Of a stretch of 64,000 bases of DNA, positions 35,134 to 48,983 are shown piece by piece. Source of the DNA: Lunatibacter salilacus (GTDB lineage Bacteria; Bacteroidota; Bacteroidia; Cytophagales; Cyclobacteriaceae); assembly GCF_009797935.1 (NCBI RefSeq), contig NZ_VOLC01000018.1:62001-126000 (forward strand). The letters run 5' to 3'. Both the position numbers and the translations under genes were made by a program. The notes beneath the pieces were generated by a model. That model made no database searches, was not told where the DNA came from, and saw only the letters and a list, made by a program, of their open reading frames with translations. The stretch's first letter is position 1, and every line of letters starts with the position of its first letter.

Positions 35134-35535
35134 ATGTCAACCATCTTTACCAAAATCATCAACCGTGAAATACCTGCCTACATTGTGGCGGAAGATGAGC
35201 ACAGCATTGCTTTTTTGGATATTATGCCGTTGGTAAAGGGCCATTTATTGGTTGTCCCCAAAAAGGAAGTGGATTATATTTTTGATTTGGAGGATGAGGA
35301 CTATTCCAACCTACTCCTATTTTCCAAAAAAGTTGCGAAAGCGATGGAATCCGTCATCTCCTGTACCCGAATAGGCGTGGCTGTGATCGGATTGGAAGTC
35401 CCCCATGTACATATTCACCTAATCCCTTTGCGCAGTATGGGTGATATTGATTTTAGCCGCCCCAAGCTGAAGCTTTCCGAAGAGGTAATGAAGGAGATTG
35501 CCGCAAAAATTTCGGGTGCATATAACACACTTTAG
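35134..35535 (+). CDS. HIT family protein
   Basis: The 133-residue protein has the histidine triad fold: SIFTKIINREIPAYIVAEDE at the N-terminus, LLVVPKKEVDYIFDL, and the nucleotide-binding motif H-V-H-I-H-L-I-P near residue 90-97. HIT proteins hydrolyse phosphoramidate or dinucleoside polyphosphate bonds; the cellular substrate is unknown. Length is slightly longer than the 115-residue average, as common in Bacteroidota. It is separated from greA by a terminator. Confidence 0.9.
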   Translation: MSTIFTKIINREIPAYIVAEDEHSIAFLDIMPLVKGHLLVVPKKEVDYIFDLEDEDYSNLLLFSKKVAKAMESVISCTRIGVAVIGLEVPHVHIHLIPLRSMGDIDFSRPKLKLSEEVMKEIAAKISGAYNTL

Positions 35536-35540
35536 GAATT

Positions 35541-35743
35541 ACGAATTAAAAATTACGAATTACGAATTTAACTCATAACCCATCACTCATCACTCATACC
35601 CCATAATTCATCACTTTTCACTTTCCACTATTCACTTTCAACCATAACCCATCATTCAAATTACGAATTAAAAATTACGAATTCAACTCATAACCCATCA
35701 CCCATCACCCATCACTCATAACTCATAACTCATCACCCATCCC
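35541..35743. repeat. Low-complexity intergenic word tract
   Basis: About 200 bases fill the gap between convergent genes with variants of a few words: TTACGAATTAAAAATTACGAATT (twice), AACTCATAACCCATCACTCAT (several), and CATCACTTTTCACTTTCC. The two blocks of the TTACGAATT word are separated by the CATAACCC words, so the pattern is word shuffling rather than a clean tandem array. No frame or hairpin is seen. Confidence 0.8.
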
Positions 35744-43762: not shown

Positions 43763-45148
43763 ATGAATCACTTGACACCAAAGCAAATAGTAGCCGAACT
43801 GGACAAATACATCATAGGCCAGCACGATGCCAAAAGAAACGTAGCCATCGCTTTGCGAAACAGAATTCGAAGGCTAATGGTCAAATCGGACCTGCAGAAG
43901 GATATTGTGCCCAACAACATCCTGATGATAGGGTCTACAGGCGTAGGGAAAACGGAGATTGCCCGGCGACTTGCCAAAATCGCCAATGCGCCTTTTACCA
44001 AGGTGGAGGCTTCTAAATTTACGGAAGTAGGCTATGTGGGCAGGGACGTTGAATCCATGGTTAGAGACTTGGTAGAGCAGTCGGTGAACATGGTCAAAGA
44101 GTCCAAAAACGAAGAAGTAAAGGAAAAAGCAGCCGTCATCGTGGAAGACGTCCTGTTGGATATCTTAATACCTCCTGTCAAAGGGGCAGGTTTTAGCACC
44201 ACCGGAACATCCACCAATTTCAACCCCGAAAATGCCTCAGAGCAGGAGCTTAATGAGCGGACTAGGGAGAAATTCCGGGAGAAGCTGAAAAATGGGGAGC
44301 TGGAAGACAGGAGAATAGAAATAAACGTTAAGCAGTCCGCCCCCTCGGGTATAGGGATGATAGGTAATGGTATGATGGATGATGCCAGTATGGCAGGTAT
44401 TCAGGACATGCTTAGCAATATGATGCCCAAGCGTACCAAAAAGCGTAAAGTGACCATCAAAGAAGCGCGCAAAATATTGATGGAAGACGAGGCTTCAAAG
44501 CTGATTGATTTTGATGAGGTAAAGGAAGAGGCCATCCGGCTTGCGGAGAATAACGGAATTATCTTCATTGATGAGATCGATAAGATTGCTTCCAAATCTG
44601 GGAAAGGCGGTTCAGGACCGGATGTCAGTAGGGAAGGTGTACAGCGGGATTTGTTGCCCATCGTTGAGGGAAGTGCTGTCAATACGAAGTACGGGATGGT
44701 GCATACCGACCACGTGTTGTTTATTGCGGCAGGAGCCTTTCACGTTTCCAAGCCATCTGATTTGATACCGGAGCTTCAGGGTAGGTTTCCGATCCGTGTG
44801 GAGCTGCAAAGCCTAACGCGGGATGATTTTTACCGCATCCTCAAGGAACCCAAAAACGCATTGACCAAGCAATACAGTGCACTCTTTGAAGCGGAGGAGG
44901 TATTTCTGGATTTTGCGGACGATGCGATGGAGGAGATTGCCTCCCTGGCATTTACCATCAATGAAGAGGTGGAAAATATCGGTGCGAGGCGTTTGCATAC
45001 GGTCATGAGTCACCTGCTCAATGAGTTCCTTTTTGAAGTTCCAGATACCATCGGGCCGAACAGCAAAATTATGATCACCAAGGAGATGGTCACGGAGAGG
45101 TTAAGTTCATTGGTTAAGAACAGGGATCTGTCGCAGTATATTCTATAG
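43763..45148 (+). CDS. hslU: ATP-dependent protease ATPase subunit HslU
   Basis: The 461-residue protein has HslU features: MNHLTPKQIVAELDKYIIGQHDAKRNVAIALRNR in outline, the Walker A loop GSTGVGKTE near residue 57, the intermediate domain (about 110-240), Walker B IIFIDEIDKIA, and the C-terminal end DLSQYIL that docks into HslV. It unfolds substrates for the HslV protease. hslV is usually adjacent but is not found on either side here. It follows porQ after 21 bases. Confidence 0.96.
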   Translation: MNHLTPKQIVAELDKYIIGQHDAKRNVAIALRNRIRRLMVKSDLQKDIVPNNILMIGSTGVGKTEIARRLAKIANAPFTKVEASKFTEVGYVGRDVESMVRDLVEQSVNMVKESKNEEVKEKAAVIVEDVLLDILIPPVKGAGFSTTGTSTNFNPENASEQELNERTREKFREKLKNGELEDRRIEINVKQSAPSGIGMIGNGMMDDASMAGIQDMLSNMMPKRTKKRKVTIKEARKILMEDEASKLIDFDEVKEEAIRLAENNGIIFIDEIDKIASKSGKGGSGPDVSREGVQRDLLPIVEGSAVNTKYGMVHTDHVLFIAAGAFHVSKPSDLIPELQGRFPIRVELQSLTRDDFYRILKEPKNALTKQYSALFEAEEVFLDFADDAMEEIASLAFTINEEVENIGARRLHTVMSHLLNEFLFEVPDTIGPNSKIMITKEMVTERLSSLVKNRDLSQYIL

Positions 45149-45243
45149 AATTACGAATTAAAAATTACGAATTACGGATTGGGAATTACGAATGGAGAAT
45201 GGGAAATTCATAACTATAACCAAATAACCAAATAACCCATCAA
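45149..45243. repeat. Low-complexity word tract after hslU
   Basis: Variants of GAATTACGAATTAAAAATTACG, GGGAATTACGAATGGAGAATGG and CAAATAACCAAATAACCC follow the hslU stop directly. The first word is the same as at 35541. Confidence 0.75.
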
Positions 45244-45600
45244 CCGATTTCAACCCGGGGATTGAGAAATAACGTTTATCTTGCGTTTTGGCCGCTATAA
45301 CCATTAATTACCTTCCACCCCTTACCGCCAAAACCCCTACCCGGTTGGTACAGCGTCCCGTGTCGGAACCGTCTATTACCATCCCACGGACAAATTCTAA
45401 CAACTCCTGTATTGATACGGATTTGTCTAAACGACGGGAATGCAGAGATTAACAGATTCGGGTTTTGGCGGGAAAGTTTGGCTTCTTCAACCATCCCCGC
45501 TGCCAAAACACAATCGAAATATTCGATCCATACCAGGGGCTCCGCTGTCGCTACACCCCTGGCTAATGATTGCGCCCCGTTAGGGCTGGGATCTTCTGAC
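45244..45600. repeat. Structured intergenic repeat, unit 1 (full length)
   Basis: It matches unit 4 (46806-47160) along its length. It starts TTTCAACCCGGGG, has a GTTTTGGC (45285-45292)/GCCAAAAC (45327-45334) inverted repeat, a middle with CGGTTGGTACAGC and GGACAAATTC, a second GTTTTGG/CCAAAAC hairpin (about 45461-45509), and a final stem CCAGGGG (45533-45539)/CCCCTGG (45556-45562). A 72-codon frame across it is probably not a gene. Confidence 0.75.
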
Positions 45601-45667
45601 CCGAGAAAATTGAGGGTAATAATGAACTAAAGCTGTTTTTGTGTTGAACTAACTCATCTGATCCAAC

Positions 45668-45710
45668 CTCCAAAAAAATCTGCGTAAATCTCCGAAATCC
45701 GCGGGCAATT
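45668..45710. repeat. Low-complexity word tract (CTGCGTAAATC type)
   Basis: AAATCTGCGTAAATCTCCGAAATCCGCGGG is a set of imperfect 9-11 base words, another family of low-complexity spacer in this window. Confidence 0.5.
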
Positions 45711-45721
45711 TCCACATAATG

Positions 45722-45876
45722 AGGACTGAGATTAATCTATCCGGGTTTTGGTGGGAGGGGAATGGCACCCCAACCATCTCCGCTGCCAAAACGCGACCTA
45801 CCTGATCCTCCTGGTCCATGGGTTTCACCCACGGCTATTGAGGAGTTGGACCCCTGCCGGGGTCCGGTGCTATGAT
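45722..45876. repeat. Structured intergenic repeat, unit 2 (3' half)
   Basis: It holds the second GTTTTGG/CCAAAAC hairpin and two further stems, CCATGGG...CCCACGG and GGACCCC/GGGGTCC. From about 45750 it agrees with unit 4 (from 47029) over roughly 125 bases with three differences that I can see, so the two copies are recent duplicates. Confidence 0.8.
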
Positions 45877-45940
45877 AAAATTAAAAGAGATTGGGTTAGC
45901 CTTCATTTGTGGGGTCAAAAAGAATTAATTCGGATTGAAT

Positions 45941-46312
45941 TTATTCCAAAATCCCGCTATCCGTCAATATTGCTTTTACTGCTTTGATATCCAATTGCGT
46001 TGCTTGTGAAATGGTTTCCACTGAGACCCCGGCCTTATAAAAATTGATAAAGCTATTCCTTTTCTCCATTTCCCTGCCCTGCGCTTCACCCTTCGCTTCG
46101 CTCGAATCCAGGGCATTTTTCAGATCCCGGTAGTGTTTCAGACTTTCCTCGTAAGCCTTTCGTACTTTTTTGTCCAAATTGACCAATTCCGCTATATCCA
46201 TAACCTTTGCAAATATTTTTTCTTGTATTCCCTCTTTACTCACCTGCTCCCCAAAGAGCTTCTTGAATCCGAAGTCGGTGAACGGGTTGATATTGCGTGC
46301 GATTCCGTCCAT
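45941..46312 (-). pseudogene. Rpn-type PD-(D/E)XK recombination-promoting nuclease/transposase, internally deleted
   Basis: The 123-residue frame joins the two ends of an Rpn family protein: the N-terminal signature INPFTDFGFKKLFGEQ (residues 8-23) runs into IQEKIFAKVMDIAELVNLDKK and the C-terminal AYEESLKHYRDLKNALDSSEAKG with its basic tail. Family members have about 280-300 residues; the missing middle includes the D and E-x-K residues of the PD-(D/E)XK nuclease core. The loss is in frame, so a short product may still be made, but it cannot be a nuclease. It lies between units 2 and 3 of the structured repeat. Confidence 0.8.
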
Positions 46313-46464
46313 GGGAGAATCTGAATGGGTTAGTGTTGTTGATAATGACCTTATTTATATTAAGTTATAGATTTTTTGGAGATTTTAACCAAGGAAAACA
46401 TTAAAAATTTTCAAATCATAGCGTTCCGGGATATAGATCAGTCTCCTCCAAATTAGTCTACACC
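46313..46464. other. Upstream region of the Rpn remnant
   Basis: AT-rich, no gene. It may keep the promoter of the Rpn gene, but I see no clear consensus. Confidence 0.35.
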
Positions 46465-46690
46465 AAAAAAAAATCCCCATAGGGGAGGGCGATATATGAC
46501 GTCAGATAAGGTGAATTGCTCCAAGCGAGGGGACGGCAGAGATTGATATATTCGGGTTTTGGCGGGAAAGGCAGGCTTCTTCAACCATTCCCGCTGCCAA
46601 AACGAAACCGAACGAATCATCCATGTCCTGGGGCTCCGCTACGCTGCACCCCAGGCTACTAAGATTACACCCCTAACGGGGCTAAAAAAA
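46465..46690. repeat. Structured intergenic repeat, unit 3 (5' end and 3' half)
   Basis: It opens with AAAAATCCCCATAGGGG, lacks the first GTTTTGGC hairpin, and has the second hairpin with a perfect GCGGGAA/TTCCCGC inner stem (about 46561-46594), then CCTGGGG (46627-46633)/CCCCAGG (46649-46655) and CCCC-TAAC-GGGG. The CCTGGGG stem differs from unit 1 by a paired change (T-A for A-T). Confidence 0.75.
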
Positions 46691-46777
46691 GCGACCAGCT
46701 ATAATCAAAATTCTCAAATTTGTTGTAAATCAGCGAGCTGCAGATACAGATGCCCAGTCTCCACCAAAACAAAATCC

Positions 46778-47160
46778 AAAAAAATCCCGTAGGGATGGGC
46801 GAAATAGGGTTTCAACCCGGGGGTTAAGGAATTACGTATAGCCGGTGTTTTGGCCGCAAAAACCGTCAATTCTGCAGACGCCTTACCGCCAAAACCCCTG
46901 CGCGGTTGGTACAGCATCTTGTTTCGGAACCGAAGATTATCATCCCTCCGACAAATTCATAAGAATCTGGTATCGATAACGAGTTTGTCAAGCGAGGGGA
47001 TGGCAGAGATTAATATATTTGGGTTTTGGTGGGAGGGGAATGGCACCTCAACCATCTCCGCTGCCAAAACGCGACCTACCTGATCCTCCTGGTCCATGGG
47101 TTTCACCCACGGCTATTGAGGAGTTGGACCCCTGCCGGGGTCCCGTGCTAGGATATAATC
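46778..47160. repeat. Structured intergenic repeat, unit 4 (full length)
   Basis: It opens AAATCCCGTAGGGATGGGCG, then follows unit 1: TTTCAACCCGGGGG, GTTTTGGC (46847-46854)/GCCAAAAC (46888-46895), CGGTTGGTACAGC, a second GTTTTGG/CCAAAAC hairpin, and the end stems of unit 2 type. It is the most complete copy. Confidence 0.8.
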
Positions 47161-47344
47161 AAAAATGAAAATGGATTAGCATTCATTCAAGCCAAACTAA
47201 AAGCTCAGAATCCAGATGTAACCTCTGCAGTATTATGAGTTAAAAGTAGCAGTAAACGGTCAATATTTTTTAGGCATGGTCAATGGTCAACTCATAACTC
47301 ATAACCCATAACCCATTTGAATTTCTACTATATTTCTACCTTTT
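47161..47344. other. Gene-free spacer with a short word tract
   Basis: No gene is seen. 47287-47318 is a short CAACTCATAACCCAT word tract like that at 35541; the rest is AT-rich. Confidence 0.4.
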
Positions 47345-47512
47345 TAATATCCAAAAATATCGAGTATCCACTAATATCAATTCTCAAATATTTCGGCCAT
47401 AGGCCATATTTCAACCATATTTCAATATCAATGAATATCCAATATCTATCAATATCAGTGAATATCCAGTATCCATCAATATCAGCAAATATCCAAAATC
47501 CATCATTTTTAA
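47345..47512. repeat. 27-bp tandem repeat with degenerate flanks
   Basis: Two near-identical 27-base units (47432-47458 and 47459-47485) read TGAATATCCA-R-TATC-Y-ATCAATATCAG, followed by a partial third unit (47486-47512) and preceded by decayed units from about 47345. Both strands are open across the array (a 9-residue repeat DIDGYWIFT on the reverse strand), which a multiple-of-three repeat gives automatically. Confidence 0.75.
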
Positions 47513-47721: not shown

Positions 47722-48234
47722 TTGCTAGATTCCCTGATCACCTCCAAAACCCGCGTGAAATTATTAATAAAATTTTTCGCAAACGAAGGCAATCAGGGAT
47801 ACCTGCGCGGACTTGCCGAGGAATTCAACGAGTCTACCAATTCGGTACGGGTAGAGCTTAACCGGCTTTCCAAGGCGGGCTTGCTGGTGTCGCAGCCGGA
47901 CGGAAAAACCAAAAGCTACCAGGCCAACAATAAGCATCCCCTGTTCGGGGAAATCCGCAGCATCGTGGCCAAATACCTGGGGTTTGACCGGCTGGTTGAG
48001 GTGGTGATTCAAAACCTGGGAAACGTGAAAAAGGCCATCATCCTCGGAGATTACGCACAGGGAATAGATTCCGGCACTATCGAACTGCTACTGATAGGCA
48101 AGGACATCAACTTTGACTATTTAAAGTTTCTGATCCAAAAAGCCGAGGAAAAAATCGAACGTAAGGTCCTCGTAGAAGTCCTCGACTCCGAACCCATCCC
48201 CAATCCAAAAGGGTTGGTGGTGTTTGATATTTAG
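47722..48234 (+). CDS. Winged-helix transcriptional regulator of a polysaccharide locus
   Basis: The 170-residue protein starts at a TTG; no ATG or GTG precedes it in frame. Residues 1-70 form a winged helix (LITSKTRVKLLIKFFANEG, SYLRGLAEEFNESTNSVRVELNRLSKAGLLVSQPDGKTKSYQAN in outline) and 75-170 a nucleotidyltransferase-like domain (KKAIILGDYAQGIDSGTIELLLIG). Genes of this type commonly open capsule or O-antigen loci in Bacteroidota, and here it stands just before such a locus. It probably controls it, but this is inference from position. Confidence 0.8.
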   Translation: MLDSLITSKTRVKLLIKFFANEGNQGYLRGLAEEFNESTNSVRVELNRLSKAGLLVSQPDGKTKSYQANNKHPLFGEIRSIVAKYLGFDRLVEVVIQNLGNVKKAIILGDYAQGIDSGTIELLLIGKDINFDYLKFLIQKAEEKIERKVLVEVLDSEPIPNPKGLVVFDI

Positions 48235-48472: not shown

Positions 48473-48634
48473 ATGAATCTAGAAGAGAAAAAGAAAGAAA
48501 TTGAAAAGACCGAAGTTCGGTTAAAAAAAGAAATGCCCCGAATTTTAAGGGAGATAGCGGTATATGAAAAGTCCCTAAAAGACGGGACTTTAATTACAAA
48601 CCCGAAACCTGCCCCGCAATTCAACCTTGACTAA
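48473..48634 (+). CDS. Small protein upstream of a zeta-toxin remnant, candidate antitoxin
   Basis: From the ATG at 48473 the protein has 53 residues: a charged helix (EEKKKEIEKTEVRLKKEMPRILREIAVYEKSL) and a short proline-rich tail (NPKPAPQFNLD). It overlaps the downstream zeta-toxin start by 8 bases, the arrangement of an antitoxin-toxin pair. I do not recognise a named antitoxin family. It remains intact although the toxin is broken. Confidence 0.55.
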   Translation: MNLEEKKKEIEKTEVRLKKEMPRILREIAVYEKSLKDGTLITNPKPAPQFNLD

Positions 48635-48983
48635 ATCCAAACTTTGGATAATTGCCGGTTGCAATGGGGCGGGGAAATCCTCTTACTCCAAAGCGTTGGT
48701 CGAAGATGGAGTGATGCCTTTTGATTACGATGAGTATTTTTTGAAATTTCACCAAAATATTCTTCCATCAGATCTTCAGGATCAAATGGCACATAACTTG
48801 GCTTTTTAAGAATTGGAAAATCAGATTGAAAAAGCCATTTCTGGAAATATGGATTTTTGTTACGAAACCAATTTTAATTCCACTCCATTATATTGGCCTA
48901 AAAAATTCAAAGATAATGGATACGAAATTCACTTAATATACCTTGTCCTGGAATATATAACGCTTTGTAAAAGAACAAAATAA
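48627..48983 (+). pseudogene. Zeta toxin family kinase remnant
   Basis: The frame starts at a TTG with TKSKLWIIAGCNGAGKSSYSKAL, a Walker A loop (G-x-x-G-A-G-K-S) of the zeta toxin/UDP-N-acetylglucosamine kinase type, and FDYDEYF. It stops at TAA (48807-48809) after 60 codons, yet the same frame continues with family-like sequence (ELENQIEKAISGNMDFCYETNF, GYEIHLIYLVLE) to 48981. A CAA-to-TAA change would explain the stop. Family members are about 190-200 residues, so the C-terminus is lost as well. Confidence 0.75.

Follow-up and report, generated by a model that had tools for sequence, protein, structure and literature searches.

REP-like repeats of Lunatibacter salilacus, probably chimeras of outer modules that pair with two clades of RAYTs

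REP, BIME and REPIN repeats and their TnpA_REP transposases (RAYTs) of class 2, the E. coli type, are dispersed palindromes, often in inverted pairs, whose copies flank a low-copy Y1 transposase gene and whose module type is lineage-specific. In canonical REPs the hairpin has GT[AG]G at its 5' foot (PMC6006769, section 12). The ends of IS200/IS605 elements such as IS608 have a hairpin near a short conserved site, and for IS200/IS605 and TnpA_REP recognition of a folded single strand by the transposase has been described (PMC8266576). Among the other Y1 transposases, subclass 1.2 of TnpA_Y1 is defined in PMC6006769 by the motifs DH[IV]H, WQ and Y...Q..HH; Table 1 of that paper gives 'no' under REP for it, and its section 18 describes the members as generally lacking typical terminal IS200 structures. 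Subclass 2.6, listed there under 'atypical secondary structures', occurs in Bacteroidetes with non-canonical flanking structures and copies elsewhere in the genome. The name RayT is used in Chryseobacterium in PMC11194056, in passages that make no mention of repeats.

We analysed 64,000 nucleotides of Lunatibacter salilacus DNA (contig NZ_VOLC01000018.1, positions 62,001 to 126,000; the window), in which a sequence-only reading had noticed a family of structured repeats of about 360 bp. Our preferred reading, to which we give a probability of roughly 0.7, is that the repeats are non-autonomous REP-like (BIME/REPIN-like) mobile elements and that the 360-bp unit is a chimera of modules from two RAYT clades. 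As in BIMEs and REPINs, the halves of the unit occur singly or as inverted pairs. Unlike the class 2 systems, the repeats have two hairpins per module, a subclass 1.2 transposase, and an extra hairpin, H1, with a central block. The transposases are related to TnpA of IS200/IS605 (PDB matches 2fyx, 2a6m and 2vhg), but no transposase lies inside the element, there are two hairpins and the RAYT is low-copy.

The array is flanked by hslU (43763-45148) on one side and by an open reading frame starting at 47722 on the other. Every hairpin that had been described was present in the window, by sequence and by coordinate, and the family is real: the full unit has 46 matches in this genome at E<=1e-3. 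Unit 1 (45248-45593, plus strand) is a near-full composite of an L-type half, a central block and an R-type half, identified by BLAST and nhmmer homology to other copies, with a match of the right-end model R1 at 45444-45593 (E 4e-49). Its left end is cut inside its H2, which corrects the layout proposed from the letters alone. The H1 of its L-type half (45285-45334, minus strand) is homologous to that of its R-type half (45462-45509, plus strand), as found by nhmmer and pattern. The outer REP-like module of unit 1 (45533-45586, plus strand) has a 'B' linker and was delimited by pattern, covariation and a clade B RAYT match; it consists of H2 (CCAGGGG..CCCCTGG, 45533-45562), the linker CTAATGATTGC and H3 (GCCCCGTTAGGGC, 45574-45586). 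Unit 2 (45721-45865, plus strand) is a solitary right half with a 'C' linker, supported by homology, an R1 match and pattern; a like module flanks the RAYT at locus L149 of genome G072. Its parts are H1 (45745-45792), H2 (CCATGGG/CCCACGG, 45816-45834), the linker CTATTGAGGAGTT and H3 (GGACCCC/GGGGTCC, 45848-45865).

Unit 3 (46538-46689, plus strand; R1 match and pattern) is a solitary right half with a 'B' linker, comprising H1 (46556-46603), H2 (CCTGGGG/CCCCAGG, 46627-46655), the linker CTACTAAGATTAC and H3 (46669-46681). Upstream of it, an isolated H3-like hairpin, TCCCCATAGGGGA, was found by pattern at 46474-46486 (no strand assigned). Unit 4 (46778-47148, plus strand; homology, R1 match and pattern) is a full composite element. 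Its left half, on the minus strand, has H3 at 46784-46796, H2 at 46807-46818 and H1 at 46847-46895; its right half, on the plus strand, has H1 at 47023-47070, H2 (CCATGGG/CCCACGG) at 47094-47112 and H3 (GGACCCC/GGGGTCC) at 47126-47143. The outer REP-like module of its left end (46784-46818, minus strand) carries an 'A' linker, by L-type alignment and a clade A RAYT match, and is shortened relative to the minus-strand type CCCGGGTTGAAACCC-CTATTAAATCGGCC-ATCCCTACGGGAT. Between the two H1 lies the central block (46896-47004, plus strand), which holds CGGTTGG..AACCG (46903-46932) and CATCCC..GGGATG (46941-47002). The window thus has six H1 hairpins (GTTTTGG..GCCAAAAC), three in units 1 and 2, one in unit 3 and two in unit 4. 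The paired change of the terminal stem reported between units 1 and 3 is present in both H2 hairpins given above, as are the different stems reported for units 2 and 4 (starting at 45816 and 47094, and at 45848 and 47126). Units 2 and 4 do agree over about 125 bases, but the best 125-base stretch has two differences rather than the three that had been counted, and over 166 aligned bases there are 11. Directly after the array, at 47344-47505, lie A+T-rich tandem-like repeats of about 27 bp (TCAATATCAGTGAATATCCA...), and short repeats of the AATTACGAATTACG type occupy two intergenic sites of the window (45148-45214 and 35532-35683).

Searching with a profile of the right-hand GTTTTGG hairpin (nhmmer) recovered its left-hand counterpart too, on the other strand. 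This makes the full unit an inverted pair, and the layout proposed earlier holds for its hairpins and central block, except that its two GTTTTGG hairpins are inverted copies of one element. The order within each half is H1, a spacer, H2, CTA with 8-10 nt, and H3. H1 is about 48 nt long (GTTTTGGC..GCCAAAAC) and nearly invariant. Read on the other strand, the H2-CTA-H3 module becomes hairpin, spacer, NTAG, hairpin, with NTAG 7-11 nt 3' of the hairpin foot, unlike REPs with GTAG at the 5' foot. The halves differ in their ends: the R-type has a linker like that of unit 1 followed by a GCCCC..GGGC hairpin, the L-type has CTATTAAATCGGCC and then ATCCCTACGGGAT, and a third tail type (C), seen in units 2 and 4, has the linker of unit 2 ahead of GGACCCC..GGGGTCC. 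Halves were seen singly, in pairs and in tandem arrays, with alternating inverted arrays in L168 and L173.

Covariation was scored across genomic copies and compared with shuffles. The covariation score of 99 matches (95 distinct), a set fitted to the model and hence biased towards it, was 0.249 against 0.108 in shuffles, and none of 500 shuffles scored as high. Of the cells in these matches, 90.8% pair, and 221 changed on both sides compared with 80 in shuffles; one H2 base pair occurs as CG 23, GC 22, AU 16 and UA 12 times. Likewise, 0/500 shuffles reached the observed score for each of two further sets, 32 R-type and 22 L-type copies. H2 and H3 thus covary strongly across copies. H1 is 97.9% paired and almost invariant, indicating that its sequence, not pairing alone, is conserved (five of 32 H1 copies in the set from the window's genome were left out of the alignment for having no recognisable tail, not for poor pairing). 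When partners were slid, pairing fell to 34-61%. Compared with shuffles, the four right halves folded better as single-stranded DNA (z -2.6 to -3.4) and one left half only weakly so (z -1.5); the central block did not (z 0.13). Selection on pairing is supported by these data. Since copies occur in either orientation and as inverted pairs, and since the outer modules flank genes for single-strand-DNA transposases, DNA hairpins are indicated and the structure is most likely selected at the DNA level. The earlier suggestion of selection on structure therefore holds for pairing, while its RNA option is disfavoured, as discussed below.

The outer modules were next compared with RAYT (HUH/Y1 transposase) loci, using R1 (R-type) and a second model, R2 (L-type), both built from the repeats alone. 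At E<=0.001, R1 or R2 matched 10/34 Y1_Tnp loci from 14 repeat-bearing genomes, in which the Y1_Tnp genes found outnumber these 34 loci: R1 at L049, L139, L140, L143, L147, L149, L156, L159 and L164, and R2 at L139, L144 and L149. Neither model matched any of 20 control regions of 6 kb picked arbitrarily from these genomes. New loci were then collected by protein similarity alone as the top matches to one query each, 28 resembling the G001 RAYT L144 (clade A) and 27 the G065 RAYT L157 (clade B); five of the 60 fetched loci (L297, L303, L327, L352 and L353) were left out, their genes having been seen before. R1 (E<=0.001) was present at 25/27 clade B loci versus 2/28 clade A loci (L298 and L313), and R2 at 22/28 clade A loci versus 2/27 clade B loci (L343 and L346); the Fisher values, 4e-11 and 7e-8, overstate independence, since loci within one clade are related. 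The expected module was missing at this threshold from six of the 28 clade A and two of the 27 clade B loci. As judged from these sequence matches, module type follows RAYT clade. For type C tails the correspondence comes from two loci: the modules next to L149 match them, and those next to L147 match less closely.

R1 matches occurred in 40 of 118 family genomes. They were found in 24/28 genomes with a clade B RAYT versus 16/90 without (Fisher 9e-11, kinship ignored), a count made by hand in which presence of clade B meant E<=1e-45, a threshold chosen after viewing the list; the broken copy of the window's genome (8e-43) was counted as present, and G088 (1e-43) and G003 (4e-43) were not. The link of outer modules to RAYTs was visible only with models of whole ends; earlier module searches gave no match in any of four RAYT regions (L071-L074). 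Automatic labelling of RAYT loci as single- or double-hairpin was too strict and then noisy, and was dropped. With hand-set labels, 'double' did not cluster on the RAYT tree (6 changes; 224/500 shuffles as low), and linker types were tested instead.

The RAYTs share with subclass 1.2, as set out in PMC6006769, motifs of the DH[VIL]H, WQ and Y..NQ..HH type, shortness and a mainly Bacteroidota distribution. D-H-[VIL]-H and Y...Q..HH were present in 15/16 RAYT loci (open reading frames recovered by motif search, of the 34 Y1 loci), an assignment to subclass 1.2 by motif alone. Subclass 2.6 has other motifs in the same source (NH[LIV]H and YIH[QN]NP), unlike the RAYTs here; only the Y1 protein of L161 (G067:C23), with NHLH and YIHQNP, resembles it. 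A genome scan gave 581 relatives, the best 80 of which are nearly all from Bacteroidota or other FCB by title; what follows concerns these best-scoring 80, not a random sample. A repeat common to both 600-bp flanks was found at 38/64 testable loci (16/80 were dropped for short flanks, and any shared repeat counted, not hairpins alone), against 0/80 and 1/136 in controls. Flanking repeats thus exist at subclass 1.2 loci, contrary to the 'no' under REP in the table of PMC6006769 cited above. Near these RAYTs, 103/554 hairpin-strands, distributed over 43/80 loci, had GTAG at a distance of 6-9 nt on the 3' side of the hairpin foot, compared with 2/180 in far flanks and 1/140 in control regions. 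At the 5' foot (offsets 0-2), GTAG, counted alone and not with GTGG, was found in 0/554. With GTAG away from the canonical 5' foot, we call the elements REP-like rather than canonical REPs.

H1 stands outside this link. The exact H1 pattern was present in repeat regions of G000, G001, G019/G117 and G032/G124 and in none of the RAYT loci (0/34, 0/80, 0/28 and 0/27), so that the RAYT link covers the outer modules only, and H1 with the central block may be part of another element or factor. Together with the near invariance of H1 and its inversion around the central block, this absence would fit a different account, a MITE derived from an ordinary (DDE) transposon. Its terminal inverted repeats would be the inverted H1, and the outer modules would be REPs of earlier date adjoining the insertion. 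We consider it unlikely, as H1, H2 and H3 stay together in solitary halves and the unit thus reaches beyond H1. An empty insertion site was not found, as synteny is lost downstream of hslU: the next two gene products of the window were not detected in the HslU-ortholog loci of eight relatives, compared over about 1.5 kb of flank each, with one of the eight loci ending at a contig end. The H1 arrays of G019 and G117 lie among apparent polysaccharide genes, and no RAYT gene was recognised inside them (genes named by eye in both cases).

The strong covariation, and the L-type end, which on its outward strand reads as a hairpin and then T's, would also suit a structured RNA, regulatory or terminator-like, in which covariation is due to RNA function. 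This is improbable: the window has no Rfam match, both strands bear copies and inverted pairs exist, and the modules follow RAYT clade. An excess of G.U over A.C mismatches is not consistent either, the G.T to A.C counts being 8:3 in H1, 48:16 in inner H1, 11:13 in H2 and 9:29 in H3. Finally, the sequence-only reading had noted that the family flanks an Rpn nuclease remnant. An Rpn (PF12784) remnant of 123 aa, which matches positions 185-228 of the 229 of the profile, does lie inside the array (45941-46312, minus strand), as a neighbour and not as part of the element. That the repeats belong to Rpn (PD-(D/E)XK) genes and are mobilised together with them could be argued from R1 matches (E<=0.001, within about 1.5 kb) at 4/8 Rpn loci and from the position of both Rpn remnants of this genome among copies. 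We give this very little credence and have rejected Rpn as the driver: only 4/14 repeat-bearing genomes have an Rpn match, the other 10 having none, and at that threshold and distance R1 finds nothing near the full-length Rpn loci (L052, L053, L165 and L166). The repeats do not require Rpn, and the link is at most incidental.

Returning to REP-like elements, the two-hairpin module at the end of each half would be the substrate of small HUH/Y1 RAYTs with subclass 1.2 motifs. By analogy with IS200/IS605 and TnpA_REP, the RAYT would recognise the folded single strand, cut it at or near NTAG, and rejoin modules as single-stranded hairpins; the covariation of H2 and H3 and the clade-specific linker are consistent with this. 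In this reading the full unit has a left end of the clade A module type and a right end of the clade B type, joined via inverted copies of the separate, nearly invariant H1 and the central block, and the chimera may arise through recombination between neighbouring modules. We lean somewhat, and less firmly, towards a broader proposal: subclass 1.2, a Bacteroidota-wide lineage, owns a REP class of reversed geometry in which NTAG follows the hairpin after 7-8 nt, its clades own different modules, and in the chimeras of the window modules from two clades are combined around a third, invariant hairpin, so that two transposases could act on a single element. If this is true, the GC-rich palindromes that are common in Bacteroidota could be assigned to a named enzyme, and a subclass of enzymes for which no substrate is known would acquire one; the existence of two module types, each specific to a clade, would be a natural experiment on hairpin recognition by HUH/Y1 enzymes, and the chimeras would show recombination of such repeats into larger structured elements.

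The copies of the window's genome are probably inactive, given that its only clade B RAYT found (L049, C6:77546-77893), flanked by several outer modules, has in-frame stops and that no clade A RAYT was found in this genome. They are mostly 70-85% alike, which suggests that the family is probably old there. A plain DNA search with the full unit gave matches in 6/59 genomes, its own included. The same genome has an intact subclass 1.2 RAYT, L046 (G000:C12:63946-64398), after which a different type of module is repeated in tandem (GTCCCGTTAGGGAC, 9 nt, GTAG). In G069, 14 strong matches to Y1_Tnp fall into sets with identical scores and look like an active IS200-type element. By eye, a short open reading frame at 48627-48809 of the window resembles a truncated zeta-toxin-like kinase; it contains a P-loop-like stretch, GCNGAGKSS, and a similar open reading frame adjoins the repeats in L168 (15352-16083).
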